From the NCBI GenBank assembly GCA_003193925.1, contig PSPG01000001.1:124001-188000 (forward strand): a DNA stretch of 64,000 nt. Reading direction: 5' to 3'. The DNA comes from Candidatus Thalassarchaeum betae. Its GTDB lineage: Archaea; Thermoplasmatota; Poseidoniia; Poseidoniales; Thalassarchaeaceae. This document shows positions 1,539 to 35,918 of the stretch, one piece after another. The translations under genes and the position numbers were made by a program. Below the pieces are notes generated by a model that was not told the origin of the DNA, made no database searches, and saw only the letters and a program-made list of their open reading frames with translations. How positions within the stretch are numbered: position 1 is the first letter of the stretch; every line of letters starts with the position of its first letter.

Positions 1539-4500
1539 TTGAATAACCCCGCCTTGCCATTGCGCATGCTCGGTGATGCCATGACTTCCACACCTCCACT
1601 TCAAGTGACCAGCGAGGAGGTCTCCCGCGGAGCTACCCCGTCTTGGCTGATGGAGCACATGATGCATCAGGCGCTGGGTCCGACGGACACCGAATCAGGT
1701 GGCTCCGGGCGAATTCTGGTAGTCTATCCGACTGAGGAGTCCCGCAGGCAGACCATGTCTCTGCTCGATGGAGCAGGCACCGCTGTCGACCGGACACTGC
1801 ATCACACGGTCGAGTCGCTGAAGTCCTCCCTAGTCGCAGACCTGCGACTGCCGAGGGTGTTGACCAAGGGGGGCGCCTTCGATCTGATTCTGCACGAGGC
1901 GTGCCGTCAGGGGGCGGCGGGACTCGCCTTTCCGCTAATCAACCCTCTGCCCGACATGAACTGGGGTAGGGGGAAGACGGCGGCTCTGGCAGAATTGCAC
2001 TCGTTCCTGTCTAGCGAGTCCGCTGCTGGGAGCTGGGAGGGGCCCGGTATCACCTCCTTCAGGATGATTCTCAGACGGCTTGAGAAGGAACTCCGGGGAA
2101 CGCATCCCGACATGGTCGCGTCGCGCATCGTTGAGGGGCTGGAGAGCGGGTCAGAGCCGTTCACCCTCATCGACGTCGATGGCATCATCATGCTCGACCA
2201 TCCTCCAGGAACCCCCCGCGCACACACGGAACTCATGCTGGCTCTGTCGAGGCATTGCCCGGTGCACCAGTTGGCCTACCCGGGCAACTTCCGACTAGGC
2301 CACCACGGCCACCTGCTGCTGGACGAGCACCCGCTCAAGAGATCAGCCGAACTGCCGAGTTGGGTTCCGAACCACGAGCCCGACGCATCGGATTCCCTCA
2401 GCGGCGCCTCGCGCCTGCTTCTGCACAGGGAGGAGCATTCATTCGATGCGGCAATCGGCCTAGCGCGAGAGCGCCTGGAGTCGAGCAAGGAAGACCGAGT
2501 GATCATCGTCGATCCGGCCTTGGAGTCCAACATGCCCCGTTGGGAGCGCGCTCTGCGCGACCTCGGAATCCCGGCCACTCCCTCGCAGGTACCAGTCTCC
2601 TCGCACTCACTGGGACACTGGCTCGGCTCACTCGCCAATCTGGCACACGGAGCCGACGCATTCTCACTGGAAAGCCTGCGCTCGCTCTCCCTGCAGCGCT
2701 CAATCAGCGCCCTCGACGAGCCCGAGCAGCACCCGTCCGAGGGCAGGGTCAGTCCACATGCGGATTCGGACCTGCTCACCGAGCTCGCCCGCGGTGAGCA
2801 CGTCCTGGGCGGTCCCGGCGCTCTCAGGAGATGGCTCCAGACGATGTCGAGGCCTACGCTCTCGGAACGAGACGGCATCAGGAAGGAGTCCACCCAGTGG
2901 TGGCTCCTATGCGTGGCCAATTCACTGAGGCCGCTGCTCAGCGGCGAGGACTGCGCGGCTTTGCAGGAGGAGCATGTCAGGGTCGGCTGTCACACCGGAG
3001 CGATTCTGCCTTTGAGTGAGCCGACTCGGAGCGGAGATGCATGGCTGCTGGCCACACTCGGACTGATCGACCTCGAATCGGCGATGGAGTTGTGCGATGG
3101 TGAGGGCACTTCGCCGGCCGCGGTGGTCCAGGCTGTAGTCAGGGACCACAGCGCCCTGAGGGCGATGCAGGGCAATATCGGACAGGAAACCCCTCGCATC
3201 GGTCCCGACTGGGTCGACGAGTTCACTTCCCTGATTCAATCCTCGAGCATCCAACAAGGTGGCTCCAACGCCACCAGCAGGGTCAGGGTATTGACTCCCT
3301 CTGATGCTCTGGGTTGCACTGCCGAGCTGGTCATCCTCACAAATCTGTCCAGTTCCTCCTGGGACCTCAGGGTCCCTAAGATGGCCTTCCTCGGCGACGA
3401 GGAGCGCCATTCGCTAGATCTCCTCCGACCCGACGGGCCAGTGCGCGACGCCCGCCACCATCTCGAGCACCTGCTCGCGGCTGCCCCGGAGACCATCCTG
3501 CTGGACCCGAGCCTCGATGACGCATCTCCTGCCGCTGCGCCGATCAGGGAATGGGCAACCGCCAACGACCCCGACGACGAGGCGGAGATCCTCGACTCCC
3601 GCCCCAGCCACCCAGTGAGTCCCCGTGACTTCCGCCAGTCTGATGGAATCCTACTCAGGAGCATGAGACCCCCTATCCACCCGCCGATCAATCCCAACTC
3701 GGTCTCGATATCGATGGACCTGCAGTTGCAGCGCGACCGTGAGAGGAGGCAACCCAGTCGCTCGGAGGATGACGGCTACCTGCCTGACGGCGTCGCACCA
3801 CACCTCTTCTCAATCGAGTTTGGGGACCTGTTCCGCAAGACTCCAGCAGGGGTCGAGCCGCCCCGTGCGCATGCGAGGTGGCCGCTCGTCGGAGGCTACA
3901 CACAGGGTGGCAAGAGGACGCCCACCATCGATCCCCGCCCATTCTCCCCCGCAGCCTCGGGCTCGATGGTCAGCGACTCGAGGCACGGCCACTCCCCGGG
4001 GGCAGAGCAGGACGTCGCGATCTGGTCGGCCAGCAGGCTCCACGAGTGGCTGCAATGCCCTAGGAGGGGATGGCTGTCAAGGGGGCTCAAGGCGGAGCAG
4101 GAGGAACTGCAGGCCGAGGACCTTGATCCTCGTACCCACGGAGAGCTCCTGCATCTCGTCCATCACGACATGCTGTGCGAGATCCTCGACCTCGATATCG
4201 GGGACGAGCGCGAGTTCGGGGGAAACGGATCAATCAGGAGTATCGCTCAGTCGGGAACCGATGAGAACGAGTTGATGCGAATAGCCCTCGAGTCACTCGA
4301 TTCCAGAGCGCCATGGCTCGACAGGACCGACGCGGTGTCCACCCACAGGCTGAGGCTCCTCACCGGGATGGACCGCGGAGCCTGGAACAGTTGGCTGGCC
4401 GACCCCAGGCCAATTCCACCGGCCGGAAGGGTCGGCACCATCGTGAGGGCCGAGAGCAGGCTCGGCGATGCTGCTCCGGTCTGCCTCGAGTGGAGCATGA

Positions 4501-5162
4501 CGAGCCACGACGAGGCGGGCATCGAGGTCTCTCTTCCCGCTGAGCTGACCTGTGGGGGGGAAGAACTCCCCACCATCCGGGTGCGGGGCTACGTCGATAG
4601 AGTGGACATTCTGCCTATGGACGAGGAGGGACTCGTATGGATGGATGCTGACGGGAACGAAAGCGTTGCCCCGATCAGAGTCCACGAATCAGGCTGGAAG
4701 CCCCGCCGACTGGTCGCAATCAGGGATCTCAAGACGTCTGAGTCCAAGTCGGCAAAGGACCGCCACTCTGGCGGTCTGCTGGATGAGTTGCAACTAGCCC
4801 TCTACGCAAGAGCATGGGAGATCGCCCACCCTGGTGACTTGGTAGTGGCAGCCGGTATCTCTCTCTTCAGTCACAACACCGAGCACATGCTCGAGATGTC
4901 CACATGGTACTCCGCTTCTCACGCAGAGTTGCAAGTGGGTACCCGCACCGATGTCACTGCGAGTCTGCACAGGTTCGCTGACGAGGGGCCCTCGCCGGGC
5001 AGTGACCACTTCAGGGCATGGCTGGCACAGCGTCTGTCCGTTGCTCTGGGGGTTGCTGCCGGGGCGGCTTCAGGCAGCGTGCACCCGACCCCGTCGAAGG
5101 GGGTATGCAGGTACTGCCCTGTCAGCAACACCTGCGAAGTCAGAATGGAGGATGATTACTGA
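1539..5162 (+). CDS. AddB/RexB-like inactive helicase with PD-(D/E)XK Fe-S nuclease
   Basis: About 1200 residues. There is no intact Walker A near the N-terminus, but the central 'TAELVILTNLSSSSWDLRVP' followed by 'DEERHSL' resembles helicase motif V of AddB proteins. The C-terminal third is a PD-(D/E)XK nuclease: 'THGELLHLVHHDML', 'RGYVDRVDIL', 'RDLKTSESKSAK' (catalytic Asp and Lys) and 'LDELQLALYARAW'. Cysteines in 'QCPRRGW' (about residue 839) and the terminal 'CRYCPVSNTC' give the four-cysteine pattern of the iron-sulfur staple of AddB nucleases. The listed start is TTG at 1539; ATGs at 1566 and 1581 are at least as likely. Its TGA overlaps the ATG of the helicase gene, so the two are surely co-translated. 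AddB-like is family-level; the substrate role in break repair is inferred. Confidence 0.75.
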   Translation: MNNPALPLRMLGDAMTSTPPLQVTSEEVSRGATPSWLMEHMMHQALGPTDTESGGSGRILVVYPTEESRRQTMSLLDGAGTAVDRTLHHTVESLKSSLVADLRLPRVLTKGGAFDLILHEACRQGAAGLAFPLINPLPDMNWGRGKTAALAELHSFLSSESAAGSWEGPGITSFRMILRRLEKELRGTHPDMVASRIVEGLESGSEPFTLIDVDGIIMLDHPPGTPRAHTELMLALSRHCPVHQLAYPGNFRLGHHGHLLLDEHPLKRSAELPSWVPNHEPDASDSLSGASRLLLHREEHSFDAAIGLARERLESSKEDRVIIVDPALESNMPRWERALRDLGIPATPSQVPVSSHSLGHWLGSLANLAHGADAFSLESLRSLSLQRSISALDEPEQHPSEGRVSPHADSDLLTELARGEHVLGGPGALRRWLQTMSRPTLSERDGIRKESTQWWLLCVANSLRPLLSGEDCAALQEEHVRVGCHTGAILPLSEPTRSGDAWLLATLGLIDLESAMELCDGEGTSPAAVVQAVVRDHSALRAMQGNIGQETPRIGPDWVDEFTSLIQSSSIQQGGSNATSRVRVLTPSDALGCTAELVILTNLSSSSWDLRVPKMAFLGDEERHSLDLLRPDGPVRDARHHLEHLLAAAPETILLDPSLDDASPAAAPIREWATANDPDDEAEILDSRPSHPVSPRDFRQSDGILLRSMRPPIHPPINPNSVSISMDLQLQRDRERRQPSRSEDDGYLPDGVAPHLFSIEFGDLFRKTPAGVEPPRAHARWPLVGGYTQGGKRTPTIDPRPFSPAASGSMVSDSRHGHSPGAEQDVAIWSASRLHEWLQCPRRGWLSRGLKAEQEELQAEDLDPRTHGELLHLVHHDMLCEILDLDIGDEREFGGNGSIRSIAQSGTDENELMRIALESLDSRAPWLDRTDAVSTHRLRLLTGMDRGAWNSWLADPRPIPPAGRVGTIVRAESRLGDAAPVCLEWSMTSHDEAGIEVSLPAELTCGGEELPTIRVRGYVDRVDILPMDEEGLVWMDADGNESVAPIRVHESGWKPRRLVAIRDLKTSESKSAKDRHSGGLLDELQLALYARAWEIAHPGDLVVAAGISLFSHNTEHMLEMSTWYSASHAELQVGTRTDVTASLHRFADEGPSPGSDHFRAWLAQRLSVALGVAAGAASGSVHPTPSKGVCRYCPVSNTCEVRMEDDY

Positions 5163-8100
5163 TGCGTCTGAACACGGCTCAGCGACTCGCACTGAATCTG
5201 GATGCTCACATCGTCATCGACGCGGGGGCTGGCACAGGCAAGACCAGCACCATCGTCGACCGGGTCATCGAGCATTATCTCACCGAAGACCAGCGAGCGA
5301 CCCGCCTCCTGCCCAAGCCGGAGAGGCCGTCGAGGCTCCAGGGGGGGATGATCACGCCTCCCTCCTCCGAGCGCATGGACCTGCGCGAGTGGGGCGGGCT
5401 GCTTCCCGGAGAGGTCGTTCTGCTGACCTTCACCAACCGGGCGGCCGACGAGATGAGGGACCGCCTGCGTCGAAGCATCGCCCGCCTGCGGCCCGGTCCC
5501 GTGGGCGACGACGGAACTCACAGGAGCGACCCGCGAATCAGGCACGAGGGCTTCGGCGAGCAGTTACTGACCCTGCTCGAAGACGCCCCGATAGGAACCA
5601 TCGACTCGTTCCTCAATCAGCTTGTGGCACCCTATCGCGGCCTACTGGGCGACGCGCTCAGCCGCGAGAACATCTCGGACGCGGGCAGGATACTACTGGT
5701 CGATTCCGCACTCAACACCCTGTGGAGGCTGCCCAGTTCCCTATCGCACATCGGCGAGGCCGTGGATGCGGGGATACCCGCCCACATCGCCTCGGAGGTG
5801 CTTGCCGCGCGCGACAGAATCGCCCGCCATTACTCGGGGCGCAGGTCAGCCGCTGGCGTCCTGCGCAGCCTCGTAGGGCGCTCCGTGTTCATCGAGGAGG
5901 CTGCGCGCAGGATCATGGACGAACAAGGCAGGATCACCCCTGAGCTGCTGCGCCAGCAGATCATGGCGACTATCGATCCCGGTGACATCGCCGAGCACAC
6001 GCATGAGGTTCATGGGATCATCGCGGAGTTCTGCGAGCTGGTCAGGGAGAACATCGCGGTACTCGCGGCAGGGGGATGGCCGGCCGAGTCCCGAATGGCC
6101 TGCCTGGACTCCCTAGCGAGTGACGGCCCACCAGACGATGCATGGGGACAGTTGACATGGCTTAGCCACGTTCTCATTTGCACGGTCAGCGCCGCCAGCC
6201 TGATGGGAAGGAATCTGACGTTCTTCCCCAACACACAGTTCCCAGATGACTCTTGGGTGCCTGGAATCGGGAAGTTCTCCGGAATCCGCGACAAGAGCAC
6301 GAAAGAGCATGTCCGAGACAGCATGAAGCGCAGCATATCGACTCTGAAGGAGGCGTGGTCGACTGACCGGGGCAAGCTCCTGCTGCACTTCTCACGCATC
6401 GCCCTGCTGCTGGACGACTCCTCCCCCCCGGCAACCCCCGCCGATTGGGAGCCCCCCCTCACCCCACTGCCCGACCCCGTGCCAGAGCGACTCCAGAGGA
6501 CCAGAGCTGACCAGCACTACTTCACGTTCGAGGCAGAGGTGCGCAACCTGCAGGACCTGTACATCATCCATCAGGGATTCCAGGGCGTCATCCAGAAACT
6601 CAAGGAGCATGACGAGGTACATGACTTCGATGACATACAGAGACTCGCGGGCGACCTCCTCCTCGCCAACTGCCCGGCAACCTGCAGGGCCTTCTACCAT
6701 CCCTCCATCCAGAGCGCCTTGGACTCCATGGCTGACAGCCCGTGGCGCGACGACCACGTAACCGCAGCCTTCGCAGCTCTCGCCGCACTGGAGGCCGAGC
6801 CGAGCAGAGCGGGAGACTCCGCTGGCCATTTAGGCGCAATACGCGCCGACCTGGAGAGCAGGTGCGACCTGCTGAGAAGGATCAGGAGGAGGTACCGTGC
6901 CTTCGTCATCGACGAGGCCCAGGACAACTCCCCCCTGCAGTGGAGACTCCTGTCGAGGCTTTGGGGCGAGCGTCAGACCGAGGACGGCGACCCACAGACC
7001 CCCGACACGCCTTGGCAGCCTACCGTCTGCTACGTCGGCGACGTCAAGCAGAGCATCTACGCCTTCAGGCAGGCCGAGGTCACGGGTTTCCTAGAGTACG
7101 CAAGGTACCTCAGGACGGTCAACATCCACGAGTTTTCTAGCGTCGCCGAACTCACTCGCAAGCCCGCACTCAGAAGCGAGTCCCACAGCCGCGACCCGCG
7201 CAACGCCCACGCGGTCACCATCGCGACTGCCACCGAGCACATGGAGAAGGGAGGGCGCGATCTGATTGCTTGGATCCCCTTCGACGCGTCCGATAGGAAT
7301 CTCCCCTCGCCTGACGGTGCGGAGGTAGACGCACGCAGGGAGGGACTGATTTCGCTTCAGGTCAACTACCGCACCGAGGGCGGGTTGCTGAGAGCGATGA
7401 ACGAGTGGTGGAACGACGTCTTCTCGCCGAGGCACCGCCATTTCCCCAACGGAGACTTCTACGCAACTCCCCAGACCCTGTTCGGCAGCCCCGAGAAGCA
7501 CGACAACTCCGGCTCGATCGAGTGGCTCTGCCCATTGAGCACCGGCGGCGACAGCGATCCCACTACCGACCTGTCCATCCCGCTGGACCCCTTCGGCCCG
7601 GGCAAACCCGACTCCCTGGAGAGACAGGGGATGCTCATCGCCTTGCGCGTGCGCAGCCTGATCGAAGGCTCTCCGGTCAGGGTCCGCTCGGCGGACGGGC
7701 GCTGGCATCGAGTCGACGCCGAGGAAATGGTCTCGCCCAGTGACATCATGATCCTGCTGTCGAGCAGGAGTAAGATCAGGGACATCATCATCCGACATCT
7801 CCATGATCTGGGGATACCAGCCCAAGCGGACCGCGAGGGAGGCCTGCTCGACAGACCGGCCGCTCATGCTCTGGAAGGACTCCTGCAATTCATCGCCAGA
7901 CCGCGCTCCCGTCATCACGCCGCGTGGGTCGCGCGCTCCGTCCTCATCGGTCTGGATGACGCGCAGTTGCAGGATTTCATCGGTGGCTCGGAGCGCGGCG
8001 AGGACCTATTGACCAGGCTGTTGGAGCATACTGTCAACGAGCGGCAGCGAGCACTGGTGGCGAGATGGAGCGAGCTTTCCAGCGCTGGCCGTCTCATCGA

Positions 8101-10093
8101 CCTGCTGGAGGAGACCATCGACAGGTCGGACATCCTCACCGCGTACCCCGACCTAGTCTCACGTCAGGACGTCGAGCAGATAGTCGAGGTCATCCGCGCC
8201 CTGTCCATCGAGGTAGGGGGCGACCCGATGGTCCTAGCAGACAGGGTTCGCGACCTGCGCGAGCGCAGCTCGGACGCCTTGGAGGCAGTCACCGTGCCCC
8301 CCAGCGACGCTGTGAGGGTGATGACCATCCACGGCGCGAAGGGTCTCGAGGCGAAGGTGGTGATACTGGCCGACGTGTTCTCGAACAGACTGACCAACCT
8401 GAACATCGAGGACCGCAATCGCCTCATCGTCAGTCCAGAGCTCTTCGCCGGCAACCCGAAGCCCTGGTCCAACGAGAAGTCCCCGAAGTCCGCCCTCTGG
8501 TCGCACGTCAGGATGATCCACCGGGCTCGCAAGAGTGCCGAGGCCCGCAGACTGCTCTACGTCGGTGCTACGAGGGCCGAGGAGCGCCTGATTATCGTAG
8601 GCTCGACGAGAGGGACAGACTGGTCGGACGGCGAGGGTCTGAGGGTGCCATGGACATACGACCGGGCTATGCCGCAAATCGGCCAGATGTGGATTGAGTC
8701 ACTGCGTCAGGGCTCATGGCGTCGTGGTGAGACCGATTCGCCATGGCTCGATACGGACGACGGCGAGGAGCAGCCCGGGATCAAGACTCGGGGGCATCGG
8801 GTCATCGATCCTGCGAGGATGCTCTCAGGAGGCTCGCTGGGAGAGGACTCCGCCCTTTCCAGAATGCTCGTCATTCACCATCCGGACTGCTTCGACGCCG
8901 AAGACGGCGATCCTACCGGCGTCCTGACCCCACTCCAGCGCATCGAGAGGCTCGATGATGCCACTCGCACCTCCGTTGAGGAGGCTGCACCGGGGTTCCC
9001 GAAGCCTCGGCAAGAGCCAGCCCCCCGAATCCGAATCACGCCCAACAGGCTCCCGGCCTTCCAGGAGTGCGGCCGCCGCCACTGGTTCGAGACCAGGGGC
9101 GGCTTGGAACCTGATCCCATCATTCCCCGGGGCGAATCAGTAGCCGACGATGGGATGCCCGAGGGCGTCGACCCCGCCACCTTCGGCACCATCGTCCACA
9201 GAGTCATGGAAATCGGAATCGGCAACCCCGGTTCCAGTGAGGACGGACTCAGCAGCCCCCTCCTCAGATCATGGACCTCCCTCATTGAGGACCGAATGGC
9301 CGACCCGGATATCCACCGCACCGTTTTCTTGGAACTCCTGCCTACGGGAGCGGACGAGGAGCACACTGCCCGACTCGTGGAGACCATGGTCGAACATCTG
9401 CAAGCCGGCCCTCTGGGCGCCTTGGTTTCAGGAGACGCTGTGGATGGCCACAAGCTCGAGGGTCTGCGAACCGAGATGCCCTTCCACATCGCACTGACTG
9501 TGCCTCTTGGGGGGATGGTTCGACACAGATGGACTCCGGATGGGCCAGAGCCCCTCACGAGACTGGATGAAGCTACGGTCGAGATGAGCGGCATAATCGA
9601 CCTCGTCCTGTGCACCAGGACATCAGAATCCTCGACGATCCGGCCGGTCGACCTCAAGACCGAAGGAGCCGGGAGGATGTCCGAGGGAGGCTCGAACGAG
9701 CTTCTCGCTGCATTGGGTTCCGAAAAGACCGGGCCAGCCTGCGAGGCTGAGGAGGCGACTCTGAGGCAGCACAGGATGCAACTGGCTCTGTACTACCGCG
9801 CCCTGAGCAGCATCGAGCACGCTAGGCAGGAAGCAGGTCTGCCCCACAGGGAGGTGCTGCGACCGGCCATCCTCATCGGTGTCACGGGCAGGATGGTCGA
9901 GTATCCCGAGGACATGCTGAAGGAGTCATTGGATGAGCTCGATGAGTTACTGGCCAGCACGGCTCGCATGGCCCTCTCCTCCGATATGCCGATCTCGCAC
10001 TTCGCCAGATTGTCAGGAGAAGCCGCTTCGGCCTGCGAGAAGTGCCCCTTCCATCGAGGCTCTCTGCCGATATGCGGGCCAGCCGAGCAGTGA
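5162..10093 (+). CDS. AddA/UvrD-like superfamily 1 helicase-nuclease
   Basis: A 1643-residue superfamily 1A DNA helicase with a C-terminal nuclease, the layout of AddA and RecB. Motifs in order: Walker A 'GAGTGKTS' (residues 22-29), 'LLTFTNRAADEMRDRL' (Ia), 'FVIDEAQDNSPLQW' (Walker B, about 580), 'YVGDVKQSIYAFRQA' (III), 'VNYRTEGGLL' (IV), 'VMTIHGAKGLEAKVVIL' (V) and 'RLLYVGATRAEERLI' (VI). The nuclease has 'FGTIVHRVMEIG', 'PVDLKTEG' and 'QLALYYRAL'. A cysteine in 'FQECGRRHWF' plus 'CEKCPFHRGSLPIC' at the end form a second Fe-S staple pattern; classical AddA nuclease domains lack this. It shares an overlapping stop/start (TGATG) with the AddB-like gene. Inferred role: resection of DNA double-strand ends by the two-protein complex. 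Confidence 0.85.
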   Translation: MRLNTAQRLALNLDAHIVIDAGAGTGKTSTIVDRVIEHYLTEDQRATRLLPKPERPSRLQGGMITPPSSERMDLREWGGLLPGEVVLLTFTNRAADEMRDRLRRSIARLRPGPVGDDGTHRSDPRIRHEGFGEQLLTLLEDAPIGTIDSFLNQLVAPYRGLLGDALSRENISDAGRILLVDSALNTLWRLPSSLSHIGEAVDAGIPAHIASEVLAARDRIARHYSGRRSAAGVLRSLVGRSVFIEEAARRIMDEQGRITPELLRQQIMATIDPGDIAEHTHEVHGIIAEFCELVRENIAVLAAGGWPAESRMACLDSLASDGPPDDAWGQLTWLSHVLICTVSAASLMGRNLTFFPNTQFPDDSWVPGIGKFSGIRDKSTKEHVRDSMKRSISTLKEAWSTDRGKLLLHFSRIALLLDDSSPPATPADWEPPLTPLPDPVPERLQRTRADQHYFTFEAEVRNLQDLYIIHQGFQGVIQKLKEHDEVHDFDDIQRLAGDLLLANCPATCRAFYHPSIQSALDSMADSPWRDDHVTAAFAALAALEAEPSRAGDSAGHLGAIRADLESRCDLLRRIRRRYRAFVIDEAQDNSPLQWRLLSRLWGERQTEDGDPQTPDTPWQPTVCYVGDVKQSIYAFRQAEVTGFLEYARYLRTVNIHEFSSVAELTRKPALRSESHSRDPRNAHAVTIATATEHMEKGGRDLIAWIPFDASDRNLPSPDGAEVDARREGLISLQVNYRTEGGLLRAMNEWWNDVFSPRHRHFPNGDFYATPQTLFGSPEKHDNSGSIEWLCPLSTGGDSDPTTDLSIPLDPFGPGKPDSLERQGMLIALRVRSLIEGSPVRVRSADGRWHRVDAEEMVSPSDIMILLSSRSKIRDIIIRHLHDLGIPAQADREGGLLDRPAAHALEGLLQFIARPRSRHHAAWVARSVLIGLDDAQLQDFIGGSERGEDLLTRLLEHTVNERQRALVARWSELSSAGRLIDLLEETIDRSDILTAYPDLVSRQDVEQIVEVIRALSIEVGGDPMVLADRVRDLRERSSDALEAVTVPPSDAVRVMTIHGAKGLEAKVVILADVFSNRLTNLNIEDRNRLIVSPELFAGNPKPWSNEKSPKSALWSHVRMIHRARKSAEARRLLYVGATRAEERLIIVGSTRGTDWSDGEGLRVPWTYDRAMPQIGQMWIESLRQGSWRRGETDSPWLDTDDGEEQPGIKTRGHRVIDPARMLSGGSLGEDSALSRMLVIHHPDCFDAEDGDPTGVLTPLQRIERLDDATRTSVEEAAPGFPKPRQEPAPRIRITPNRLPAFQECGRRHWFETRGGLEPDPIIPRGESVADDGMPEGVDPATFGTIVHRVMEIGIGNPGSSEDGLSSPLLRSWTSLIEDRMADPDIHRTVFLELLPTGADEEHTARLVETMVEHLQAGPLGALVSGDAVDGHKLEGLRTEMPFHIALTVPLGGMVRHRWTPDGPEPLTRLDEATVEMSGIIDLVLCTRTSESSTIRPVDLKTEGAGRMSEGGSNELLAALGSEKTGPACEAEEATLRQHRMQLALYYRALSSIEHARQEAGLPHREVLRPAILIGVTGRMVEYPEDMLKESLDELDELLASTARMALSSDMPISHFARLSGEAASACEKCPFHRGSLPICGPAEQ

Positions 10094-10137
10094 GGGGCCG
10101 TCGAAGAGTCCTTGTGCTCAAGGTCGCACACAAGGCC

Positions 10138-11550
10138 ATGGAGCCAGACCTCGACGCGCTGCTCCAGCGCAGCGATGAACTCTGGGAGGAATCCATCCTG
10201 CCCAGCTTGTCAGGGTTCATTGAGATACAGGCGCTATCGCCGCTCTTCGAGCCGAACTGGGCCGAGATGGGCGAGCTGGATGCCGCCATCAACTTGTTCT
10301 GCGGCTGGCTCGACGAGCAGACCATATCGGGCATGAGTTATGACGTTCACCGCATCGACGACAAATCTCCCGTCCTTCTCGTTACGATAGAGGGCACAGG
10401 TCCGGGTGAGGCCATCTTCTACTCACACCTCGACAAGCAACCCTCCAAACCTGAGCTTTGGTCCGAAGGCCTCCACCCATTGAAGGCAGTTCGCAGGGAT
10501 CCTTGGCTATACGGCAGGGGTTCAGTCGACGACGGCTATGGGGGATATCTCTGTGTGACATCAATTCGCCTGCTCCAGGAGGCAGGTATTCCGCACCCAC
10601 GGTGCGTTTTCCTCATTGAGACTTGCGAGGAATCTGGCTCATTCGACCTCCCCCCGTACTTGGATGCATTGAGCGAGCAACTCGGTAATCCCGACATGAT
10701 CGTTGTGTTGGACAGTGGCGGCCCTGACTACGACCACGTTTGGATGACAGAAGCTCTCAGAGGGCTGGTCTCGGGGACGCTATCCGTGCGGGTATCACAC
10801 GAGGGCATTCACTCAGGGACCTCAGGCGGCTCGATAGCCTCCTCCTTCAGGATTCAGAGGGTGCTGCTGGACAGGGTCGAGGATTCCACTACTGGAGAGG
10901 TATTAATTCCAGAGATGCACGTCGAGATTGACGCCGGTATTCGTGACAAGGCAGGAGCTCTTGCCGAGGTGGTCGGAAACAGCGTGTGGGATCAACTTCC
11001 CACTGTCGATACTCTAGTACGAGTCGCTGATTCAACCGAGGACATGATCCTCGCGATGAACTGGCAGCCCACCTTGTCCATCATCGGCGCTGACGGCATG
11101 CCACCCGTCCAAATCGCGGGCAACGTCCTGCGAACGAACACTGACCTAAAGCTAAGCTTCAGGATTCCCCCTGGAGTTGATTCCGAGTCGGTTCTTGCAA
11201 AGGCCAAGCAGATCCTTGAGGCGAATCCACCCTACGGGGCCGAGGTCACATTCACCGCGGACTCTTGCGCCGACGGCTTCCACGCTCCGCCCCTAGCGGG
11301 TAATGTCAGCAATGCAATCCACGACGCCTCAATGGCACTCACCGGCTTGCCGCCGCTGGCATCTTGGACAGGTGGTACAATTCCATTCATGGCAATGATG
11401 CAGGGCAAGTATCCGGAAGCCATGTTCCTCTGCACTGGCTCCTCCGGCCCCGGCAACAATGCCCACGGGCCCGACGAGAAACTGCATATCCCATCCTCAA
11501 AGAGGCTCACTGCGGTGCTGTCGGCAACCATAGCCGCGGTTTCAAGATGA
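10138..11550 (+). CDS. M20 family metallopeptidase (dipeptidase-like)
   Basis: Zinc-dependent peptidase or amidohydrolase of the M20 family, about 470 residues. The metal and catalytic signatures are present in order: 'YSHLDKQP' (first His-x-Asp, near residue 95), 'YGRGSVDDGYGG' (bridging Asp), 'ETCEESGS' (general base Glu and metal Glu) and 'SHEGIHSGTSGG', the dimerisation-domain histidine region. The sequence resembles carnosinase-like cytosolic dipeptidases. No signal peptide is seen. The ORF track opens at 10042, inside the helicase gene, but ATG 10138 begins the natural N-terminus 'MEPDLDALLQRSDELW' and leaves only 44 bases after the helicase stop. Peptide substrates are likely, since exported peptidases are encoded elsewhere in the window, but the true substrate is unknown. 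Confidence 0.85.
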   Translation: MEPDLDALLQRSDELWEESILPSLSGFIEIQALSPLFEPNWAEMGELDAAINLFCGWLDEQTISGMSYDVHRIDDKSPVLLVTIEGTGPGEAIFYSHLDKQPSKPELWSEGLHPLKAVRRDPWLYGRGSVDDGYGGYLCVTSIRLLQEAGIPHPRCVFLIETCEESGSFDLPPYLDALSEQLGNPDMIVVLDSGGPDYDHVWMTEALRGLVSGTLSVRVSHEGIHSGTSGGSIASSFRIQRVLLDRVEDSTTGEVLIPEMHVEIDAGIRDKAGALAEVVGNSVWDQLPTVDTLVRVADSTEDMILAMNWQPTLSIIGADGMPPVQIAGNVLRTNTDLKLSFRIPPGVDSESVLAKAKQILEANPPYGAEVTFTADSCADGFHAPPLAGNVSNAIHDASMALTGLPPLASWTGGTIPFMAMMQGKYPEAMFLCTGSSGPGNNAHGPDEKLHIPSSKRLTAVLSATIAAVSR

Positions 11551-32666: not shown

Positions 32667-35600
32667 GTGGAGCAGGTGCGCGACTTCAGCAAGCTCGCCG
32701 GGCTTCTGCTCGAGCGGCGCCCACAGGTGCACATCACCATCCTGCTGGTCTCGCTACTGATGATTCCCGGAATGCTCGCCAGCCTGACTCCGATAGACAT
32801 CGAGTCCTACGACATGGAATCCCCCGAACTTACTGCTTACAAGGTGCTCAACGAGGAATTCGCCTCCGCTGAAGTGATGTACGGGATGATGGTGTCGATT
32901 CGCGACCCAACGCATTATTCGAGCGGTCCCGAAGCCCCTCACCGCGACGCTGATGGGAACGTTCTGACGGAACAGCTCCCCCAGATTGAGGAGAGGATTG
33001 CCTATCCCGGGGACAATGCCGGACTGGTCGGTGAGGGAGTTCCCATCGGTGGTATACTGAACCTCACGGTTCTGCGTGAGATTGACGGGAAGGCCGCTGA
33101 GATACGCGCCGACCCCATCTCAGAGTTCTCCCGCCCCATGGTCAGCGAACTGACGGGAGAGGGGAGCGATGGGGTGCTGGCTCTGCCGGACCAGTTCCGC
33201 TCGTTCATGTCCAATCGCTCTATGCTGACTCGCGACACGGTGAACGAGTTCGGGCAATTCGTGCCTGCCCGCACCAATTGGACCGACTGCTGGCCGCTGG
33301 AGTGTCTCGAGTTCGATGACCCGGGAATCACCCAGTCCCACATCGACCTCGCAGCCCATCGCATGATTGCCTCGAGCGAAGGCGTCTTCATGCGCTGGAT
33401 GTCCACTGACCGAGGATTCACCTCCGATCCCAGCAGCCCGGTCATTGGCCCGATCGGTGGTAGGATTACCGAGGACGGCACCTTCGAGGGTGCGGAATGG
33501 GGACCGGGTCGTTGGTCGGCCTCTACGACTTGGATGCTCCTGCAAGTCAGCCGCGACGCGATGGAGGAAAGCGGTTTCACCCATTCCTGGAGCAACGCCA
33601 GATCGGAGCCGGATGGCTGGTCATATCATGGCCTGCAGCTTCTCACGACGCCCCCTCACCGAACCACAGAGGAGTGCAGGGCGCTAGTGGAGGGAGGAGG
33701 AGCCCCCTGTGCGGCCGAGTGGGCCATAGTCGCGCTCGAGGAGAATATCCGAACCACCGACCAGTTGACCGTTTCGATGATAATCGGCGAGGGGATCAAC
33801 GTCGAAGTCAACCGAGAGCTCCAGGAATCCGCGATTCTGCTTGCCGGGATGGCCATAGCGATACTCGTGCTGCTTTGGTTCAGCCTCCGACGCCTCTCCG
33901 ACGTGGCAATCGTCGGCGCCACCTTGGTATTCAGCCTCCTGTGGATGCAGGGCCTTATTGGCTGGGGCATAATCGTCGGAAGCGAATTCGACCTCAAGAT
34001 CATCAGCCGCAGCCAGTTCTCCATTCTGCTACCGATACTGATATTGGCTCTCGGTATCGATGATAGCCTCCACGCGCTTCACCGATACAAGGAGGAGAGA
34101 CGGAACGGCAAGCCTCCCGAGGACGCCGCCCGCGTCTCGCTCACGCGCGTCGGCCGCGCGATAATGCTCACCTCGTTCACCACCATGGCGGCCTTCGCCG
34201 CCAACTTCACGTCGGAAATACCGGCCCTGCGCTCGTTCGGCTTGGAAGCGGCGTTCGGCGTAGGCTCCGCATTCATTCTCACAGGGCTCTGGGCTCCGAT
34301 TATCAGGTTGGACTGGGATTTATGGATCTTGAAGCGCGGTGAACTTGGAGAGGAGGACGGGACCACTTTGCACATGATTCGGGAGGAATGGCTCGCAGAG
34401 GTCGCGGGAACCTCCTCGAAGAAGTCCTCGCTCATCTTGGCTGCTGTATTGGTCCTCTCAGCGCTGGCCGTGCCGATGATGCTCGGTCTCGAGGGCGATT
34501 TCAAAGTCGAGGACTTCTTGGACGGTGAGAGCGATTTCGCCCAAGGCGTCGAGATAGTCAACACGCGGTTCACGGACGAAGGGGAGCCTGCTGCCATCGT
34601 CATCGAGGGCGACATGCTCGACCCAAGGGTGTACGCGGCGATCGGCGCCACCAGGGAGAACATGCTAGATGCCTCTGAGGACGACCCCCAGAGATTCACT
34701 CGCACTCCTCTGGGGGTGCCGGAGTTGCACGGCGTGGACGAGCTCGCTCTGTTCGCGATGGCCAGCATGGGGGCGAATGCCACGCCCTTCATCGAAGCGG
34801 GTTGGGCTTCTGAATCGAACAGCGGTTGCGCTATCACCTCCAACGGCCTGCCTGAGACTACAGACCGAGACTGCCTGAGGTTCCTGTACGGCTTCCTGTT
34901 CACACACGGCATCCCTGAGGGAGGGCTCATCCCGCACATTCCAGCCAGCATAATCGCGTTGTACATCCTGCCCTCATGCGAGTTGGACCCACAGGCAGTC
35001 CACCTCTGTTCTGACGGCAGCGGTCCGAGTTACGAGCGGATGACCCTGCGCTGGGGTGTCAGCGACGCCGAGAAGTTCAACTTGGTCGAATTGACTCTGG
35101 CGGAGCTCGAGAGGGACATGGCTCCGTTCCAGGAGTTGGCCGGTCAGGACATCTCGCTCCGTGTGCCCGTCAGTGAGGCCAGTGAGGAGTTTCCAGTCAC
35201 GTGGGCGATACCGACGGGTGATCCTGTGACCCGGTACGTCGCCGCCTCGAGCATGCAGAACGAGCTGCAAGGGACCCTGATGCTCGGAGTCGTGTTCTGC
35301 CTGATTACGCTGTGGTGGGGATTCAGGAGGGTTGGCGCCAGTTTGAACTCGTACTCAAAGCGCGAACTCGTTCTCTCTCTGCCGGTCATCGCAGGCATTG
35401 CCTACTTTGTTCTCTGGTCGACCGGCTCCGCGACCATCTGTGCCGTGATCACTGTCTGGCTACTGCTCAATGCCGGGCTCTGGGGGACTCGTGCGCTCAG
35501 TATGGCGATGGTCACCACCACCCCCATCATCGTAGTGGTCATCTGGCTCTACGCGATCATCTACCTAGCCGGATACGGGCTCAACATGGTCACCGTCGCC

Positions 35601-35918
35601 ATCGCGGCGATGTCTCTCGGGGTCGGTATCGATTACGTCATACACGTCGTCGAGCGCTACCGTGAGGAACACTCGCGCGGTGCGAGCTCAGAGATGGCGG
35701 TTCGCGCCGTTGGCGGAGCCGCGGGGCTGGCGCTGTTCGGCTCCGCCGTATCCGACGTGACTGGATTCCTCATCATAGCCCAGTCGCCGATGGGCTTCTT
35801 CTCATCTTTCGGCCTGTTCTGCGCCGCGATGATCGGCCTCTCTCTACTCGCGGGCCTAGTGCTCACGCCGGCGTTGCTGAGCACCATCAACAGACATCCG
35901 TCCAACAACTCAGTCTGA
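32667..35918 (+). CDS. RND/MMPL-family exporter
   Basis: 1083 residues starting at GTG 32667. One N-terminal transmembrane helix ('ITILLVSLLMIPGMLASL') is followed by a large outside loop, five helices around residues 388-560, a second helix-plus-loop unit, and five more helices near residues 870-1070, giving the duplicated 6+6 RND plan. Signature lengths such as 'ALGIDDSLHALHRYKEERRNG' and 'SLGVGIDYVIHVVERYREEH' are the conserved transmembrane 4 and loop segments of MMPL and sterol-sensing-type exporters. Both outside loops contain cysteines. No membrane-fusion partner is adjacent. Cargo (lipid, quinone or drug) cannot be told. Confidence 0.85.
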   Translation: MEQVRDFSKLAGLLLERRPQVHITILLVSLLMIPGMLASLTPIDIESYDMESPELTAYKVLNEEFASAEVMYGMMVSIRDPTHYSSGPEAPHRDADGNVLTEQLPQIEERIAYPGDNAGLVGEGVPIGGILNLTVLREIDGKAAEIRADPISEFSRPMVSELTGEGSDGVLALPDQFRSFMSNRSMLTRDTVNEFGQFVPARTNWTDCWPLECLEFDDPGITQSHIDLAAHRMIASSEGVFMRWMSTDRGFTSDPSSPVIGPIGGRITEDGTFEGAEWGPGRWSASTTWMLLQVSRDAMEESGFTHSWSNARSEPDGWSYHGLQLLTTPPHRTTEECRALVEGGGAPCAAEWAIVALEENIRTTDQLTVSMIIGEGINVEVNRELQESAILLAGMAIAILVLLWFSLRRLSDVAIVGATLVFSLLWMQGLIGWGIIVGSEFDLKIISRSQFSILLPILILALGIDDSLHALHRYKEERRNGKPPEDAARVSLTRVGRAIMLTSFTTMAAFAANFTSEIPALRSFGLEAAFGVGSAFILTGLWAPIIRLDWDLWILKRGELGEEDGTTLHMIREEWLAEVAGTSSKKSSLILAAVLVLSALAVPMMLGLEGDFKVEDFLDGESDFAQGVEIVNTRFTDEGEPAAIVIEGDMLDPRVYAAIGATRENMLDASEDDPQRFTRTPLGVPELHGVDELALFAMASMGANATPFIEAGWASESNSGCAITSNGLPETTDRDCLRFLYGFLFTHGIPEGGLIPHIPASIIALYILPSCELDPQAVHLCSDGSGPSYERMTLRWGVSDAEKFNLVELTLAELERDMAPFQELAGQDISLRVPVSEASEEFPVTWAIPTGDPVTRYVAASSMQNELQGTLMLGVVFCLITLWWGFRRVGASLNSYSKRELVLSLPVIAGIAYFVLWSTGSATICAVITVWLLLNAGLWGTRALSMAMVTTTPIIVVVIWLYAIIYLAGYGLNMVTVAIAAMSLGVGIDYVIHVVERYREEHSRGASSEMAVRAVGGAAGLALFGSAVSDVTGFLIIAQSPMGFFSSFGLFCAAMIGLSLLAGLVLTPALLSTINRHPSNNSV

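Follow-up and report, generated by a model that had tools for sequence, protein, structure and literature searches.

The addAB locus of Candidatus Thalassarchaeum

Near the start of the window, the 64,000-nucleotide stretch of DNA analysed here, lie two overlapping genes on the forward strand. The first, addB (1539–5162, +), encodes 1207 residues with an inactive-motor, scanner-like N-terminal part and a C-terminal RecB-type nuclease; the second, addA (5162–10093, +), encodes 1643 residues comprising a UvrD-type SF1 helicase motor and a further C-terminal RecB-type nuclease. Both reading frames appear in the ORF listing of the window where the original prediction had placed them. They share the A of a stop/start overlap, TGATG (5160–5164, +), which suggests translational coupling. 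The true start of addB is uncertain, and perhaps lies at an ATG, since the annotated codon is TTG and in-frame ATGs are found at 1566 and 1581. The source genome (1.48 Mb, 92% complete) belongs to the order Poseidoniales of Marine Group II, and an addB-type reading frame lies immediately 5′ of addA in all 28 operons fetched. Genes flanking the pair in the window are metabolic and housekeeping. Elsewhere in the window, 32667–35918 encodes a 1083-residue MMPL-family protein with matches to sterol-sensing/Patched domains.

Pfam assigns PDDEXK_1 to the C-terminus of both proteins, while the UvrD-helicase and UvrD_C matches are confined to AddA, with none in AddB. The Walker A sequence of AddA, GAGTGKT (5225–5245, +), is invariant among 79 aligned proteins and the DEAQ motif is equally constant (79/79), indicating an intact UvrD-type SF1 motor, the closest relative of which among solved structures is Bacillus subtilis AddA. 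The NCBIfam models addA_alphas (8e-41) and addA_Gpos (2e-35) match AddA at 140 and 122 bits, under their equivalog cut-offs of 861 and 708; as these models describe alphaproteobacterial and Gram-positive subgroups, the shortfall rules out those subgroups but leaves the AddAB type standing. The nuclease domain of AddA (9032–10054, +), defined by PDDEXK_1, conservation and a predicted model, has H1346, D1480, D1497, K1499, Q1540 and Y1544 intact in all 78 readable sequences. Its sequence alone gave no meaningful match to solved structures; the nearest structures to its model (pLDDT 88) by Foldseek are AdnA, which ranks first, RecB, Dna2 and AddB.

The sequence of AddB alone likewise gave no meaningful match among solved structures. 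Its AlphaFold model (pLDDT 83) matches B. subtilis AddB along the whole length, with all of the top five Foldseek matches being this protein (E ∼1e-20, ∼1200 columns), followed by AdnA and then RecC. A Walker A motif (GxxxxGK[ST]) is absent from the first 120 residues of every one of the 63 homologues, and the nuclease site reads HDDKQY in 61 of them and HDEKQY in the other two. Cys840 (4056–4058, +), the putative first staple ligand, and C1190-X2-C1193-X5-C1199 (5106–5135, +), the remainder of the predicted staple, are found in 63/63, with the spacing of 2 and 5 unchanged throughout. On sequence grounds, these four cysteines most likely staple the ends of the nuclease around a predicted 4Fe-4S cluster. 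In B. subtilis AddAB the cluster is required for binding DNA breaks or ends, according to Yeeles 2009 as cited in PMC4176176.

Overall the locus resembles B. subtilis AddAB in being a gene pair with AddA as sole active motor, an inactive helicase-like AddB, one nuclease per subunit and a four-cysteine staple on AddB. It differs in that AddA exceeds its B. subtilis counterpart (1232 residues) by ∼400 residues and carries a second cysteine set, and in that the host archaea use RadA.

A second cysteine set on the AddA nuclease

The second set comprises Cys1303 (9068–9070, +), its presumed first ligand, and C1625-X2-C1628-X9-C1638 (CX2CX9C; 10034–10075, +), both recognized by conservation. Cys1303, Cys1625 and Cys1628 are kept in ∼90% of Poseidoniales proteins, which, together with the invariance of the AddB set, argues that neither set arose by chance. 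The standard CCCC arrangement occupies the four positions in 48 of the 79 aligned proteins. Most of the others retain Cys1303 and the CXXC and are altered in the last part, several of them, with a shortened AddA tail, having a third C-terminal cysteine elsewhere. A shortened CxCxxC tail with Cys1303 kept is seen in several Thalassarchaeaceae (loci L094–L096, L103, L111, L116, L130, L142 and L144) and is possibly a rebuilt metal site. On a tree of the helicase part only, 73 proteins have both the first and the tail cysteines and 5 have neither, with no mixed cases; this joint loss points to one functional unit, although it amounts to no more than two independent events. The first cysteine lies between two short helices in the models of both the AddA nuclease and AddB. 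In most species the four AddA cysteines would staple the AddA nuclease in the same manner as in AddB, with a longer C-terminal loop.

It is also conceivable, though we think it rather unlikely, that this is an ordinary AddAB with a single Fe-S staple, that of AddB, and that the AddA cysteines coordinate zinc or have remained as a structural feature that the enzyme can do without. Consistent with this, many Thalassarchaeaceae have a changed or missing AddA set while the nuclease site stays intact (78/78), the tail spacing is X9 in place of the usual X5, and a related four-cysteine nuclease (DUF3799) held zinc in the crystal, as taken up in a discussion in PMC3466216. However, the four-cysteine layout and the joint loss of the first and tail cysteines speak against it, canonical X5 sets exist in bacterial AddA, and the fold of the AddA nuclease is nearest to the staple-bearing AdnA, AddB and Dna2, as well as to RecB. 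We favour a staple on each nuclease, and the AddA set looks ancestral to Poseidoniales. The original prediction of staple-type cysteines on both nucleases is upheld, at the level of sequence, as a trait that the order inherited from its ancestor. The at least two natural removals of the second set, with the nuclease kept, offer a way to ask what a second cluster adds.

The further proposal that these enzymes form a distinct two-staple subclass is weakened by comparison with bacteria and is not supported in its original form. AddAB pairs with four cysteines on both nucleases occur in Deinococcus deserti, Deinococcus sp. QL22, D. psychrotolerans, Picosynechococcus PCC 7002 and Kovacikia (L067, L166, L167, L164 and L165), so Thalassarchaeum shares the two-staple state with bacteria, and the loss or alteration of the AddA set in several Poseidoniales genera also speaks against such a subclass. 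These bacterial proteins are shorter, plasmid-borne, in some cases beside anti-phage genes, and apart in the tree, and their AddA tail is CX2CX5C in contrast to the CX2CX9C of Thalassarchaeum. The plasmid pairs of Deinococcus sp. QL22 (L166, 1741–13949) and D. psychrotolerans (L167) are followed by WYL-domain genes and by BREX or other anti-phage genes, and the Deinococcus plasmid enzymes may serve defence. Searching plasmids by tblastn with the AddA nuclease or AddB matched nothing, and viral contigs searched with the AddA alignment yielded no relative.

Among archaea, haloarchaea and a small number of other Thermoplasmatota also have AddAB-like pairs, with the same order of a PDDEXK protein followed by a UvrD-helicase protein. 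In contrast to Thalassarchaeum, most of these pairs have the staple on AddB only, and Mre11 was detected in the Thermoplasmatota cases. Neither Thermus nor haloarchaeal AddA has any of the second cysteine set. A locus in a different family of Thermoplasmatota (L176; G118, family f32; 4077–11235, −) encodes an AddAB with both sets and the same CX2CX9C tail on AddA as in Thalassarchaeum.

Distribution of AddAB and of archaeal end-processing genes

Among named genomes, the top 80 relatives all come from Marine Group II/Poseidoniales or from unspecified Euryarchaeota/Thermoplasmatota records, and include Ca. Thalassarchaeum and single-cell genomes. AddA was found in 57/60 near relatives and, among Poseidoniales genomes at least 75% complete, in 92/95, against 0/6 genomes of the sister order; a genome from the order that is a single contig of 2.06 Mb (G037) also carries addAB. 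The order as sampled consists of two families and ∼21 genera, in agreement with the Ca. Poseidoniales of PMC6461757, and AddA identity across it ranges from 31 to 84%. In a small tree with 16 non-Poseidoniales sequences, two of them on long branches, the Poseidoniales AddA proteins group in a single clade (100/100) with a long stem; a tree of this size names no bacterial donor. Acquisition of addAB from bacteria is plausible, and likely on general grounds. The claim of an AddAB-like pair in an archaeon is borne out by sequence, fold and distribution. A literature search, with most subscription papers outside its scope, returned no paper that links AddAB to Marine Group II.

The suggestion to look in the same organisms for Mre11, Rad50, HerA and NurA proved productive. 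The Mre11/SbcD profile, which gave a match in each of the four archaeal reference genomes, matched 3/95 Poseidoniales compared with 186/199 other Thermoplasmatota, among them 6/6 of the sister order, and the NurA profile matched 0/95 compared with 62/199; absence here means no profile match in draft genomes. RadA, in turn, is present in 60/60. Sister-order Mre11 matches are weak (∼1e-4 in five of six), and a diverged Mre11 could therefore escape detection. The loss is not absolute, because two of the three Mre11-positive Poseidoniales, G280 and G302, carry Mre11-like and SMC/Rad50-like genes; the pair is clear in G280 and weaker in G302, with Rad50 identity clear only in the former. The G280 locus may have survived from the ancestral one or have been regained. 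In this Poseidoniaceae genome the pair (L188, G280:C9, 1138–5008, −) adjoins a likely topoisomerase VI gene pair. The Rad50 zinc-hook profile missed two of the four archaeal controls and is uninformative, and SbcC_Walker_B gave only sub-threshold matches, in reading frames of ∼370–555 residues. A DUF87/HerA-type ATPase of ∼830 residues is conserved in Poseidoniaceae (e.g. G037:C1:223741-224589) and mostly missing in Thalassarchaeaceae, the DUF87 profile being too broad to settle the presence of HerA.

A proposed role in double-strand break resection

We propose, with a probability of roughly 0.7, that the pair forms an AddAB-type helicase-nuclease, encoded on the chromosome, which resects double-strand breaks for RadA and was gained at the base of Poseidoniales, where it replaced Mre11-Rad50 and NurA-HerA. 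Domain content, fold, conservation and distribution are shown by the analysis; the activity, the metal, the coupling to RadA and any Chi-type regulation are inferred. On the analogy of B. subtilis AddAB (PMC4027173, PMC4824097), AddA, as the only motor, would pull the 3′ strand, and the inactive helicase-like part of AddB, where the bacterial protein scans for Chi, would scan that same strand. In bacterial AddAB each nuclease cuts one strand (PMC4027173), and by the same analogy the two RecB-type nucleases would each cut one unwound strand until a regulatory signal spared the 3′ strand, the single-stranded tail of which would then be coated by RadA. In evolutionary terms, the arrival of AddAB would date to the base of the order, with Mre11-Rad50 and NurA-HerA lost in most members.

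A review describes Mre11-Rad50 as universally conserved (PMC7690668). We lean towards the view that Poseidoniales are the first known archaeal order without Mre11-Rad50/NurA-HerA, running RadA recombination from a bacterial-type AddAB with two metal-stapled nucleases. What is new is not so much the two staples as the apparent exchange, by a whole order of archaea, of its resection machinery for AddAB. If true, this would be a clean cross-domain replacement of the first step of recombination, with the archaeal recombinase kept, in an abundant marine order. It would also raise the questions of whether an AddAB-type enzyme can hand 3′ tails to RadA and whether there is an archaeal Chi sequence.

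A function in defence, as a helicase-nuclease of the UvrD-Cas4 fusion class, in place of housekeeping repair appears improbable. UvrD-Cas4 fusions of bacteria and mesophilic archaea do occur in restriction loci (PMC5704561), Deinococcus two-staple pairs adjoin BREX and other anti-phage genes, and AddA matches GajB models, as any UvrD helicase may. However, the Poseidoniales gene is nearly universal across one order, with identities of 31–84%, its neighbours in the window are of the metabolic and housekeeping kind, and the AddB partner is always present.

Even less probable is an AdnAB-type enzyme with two motors. In its favour, both subunits end in nucleases with intact sites; the AddB model also matches AdnA, and the AddA nuclease has its closest counterpart among solved structures in AdnA of mycobacterial AdnAB. 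Both AdnAB subunits, however, have a UvrD-like motor (PMC13309787), whereas none of the 63 AddB proteins has a Walker A motif, and the AddB model matches B. subtilis AddB with an E-value some six to seven orders of magnitude below that for AdnA. Identity with AdnAB, defined by working motors in both subunits, was accordingly rejected. The lack of Walker A in AddB, the intact AddA motor and the two intact nuclease sites lead us to assign the pair to AddAB, in keeping with the SF1 motor of AddA, the full-length AddB fold, the active-site residues on both nucleases and the four AddB cysteines. Bacterial contamination of the assembly, suggested by the bacterial nature of the gene family, is refuted by the distribution of AddA across Poseidoniales, in 92 of 95 genomes of the order, in single-cell genomes and in a one-contig genome.
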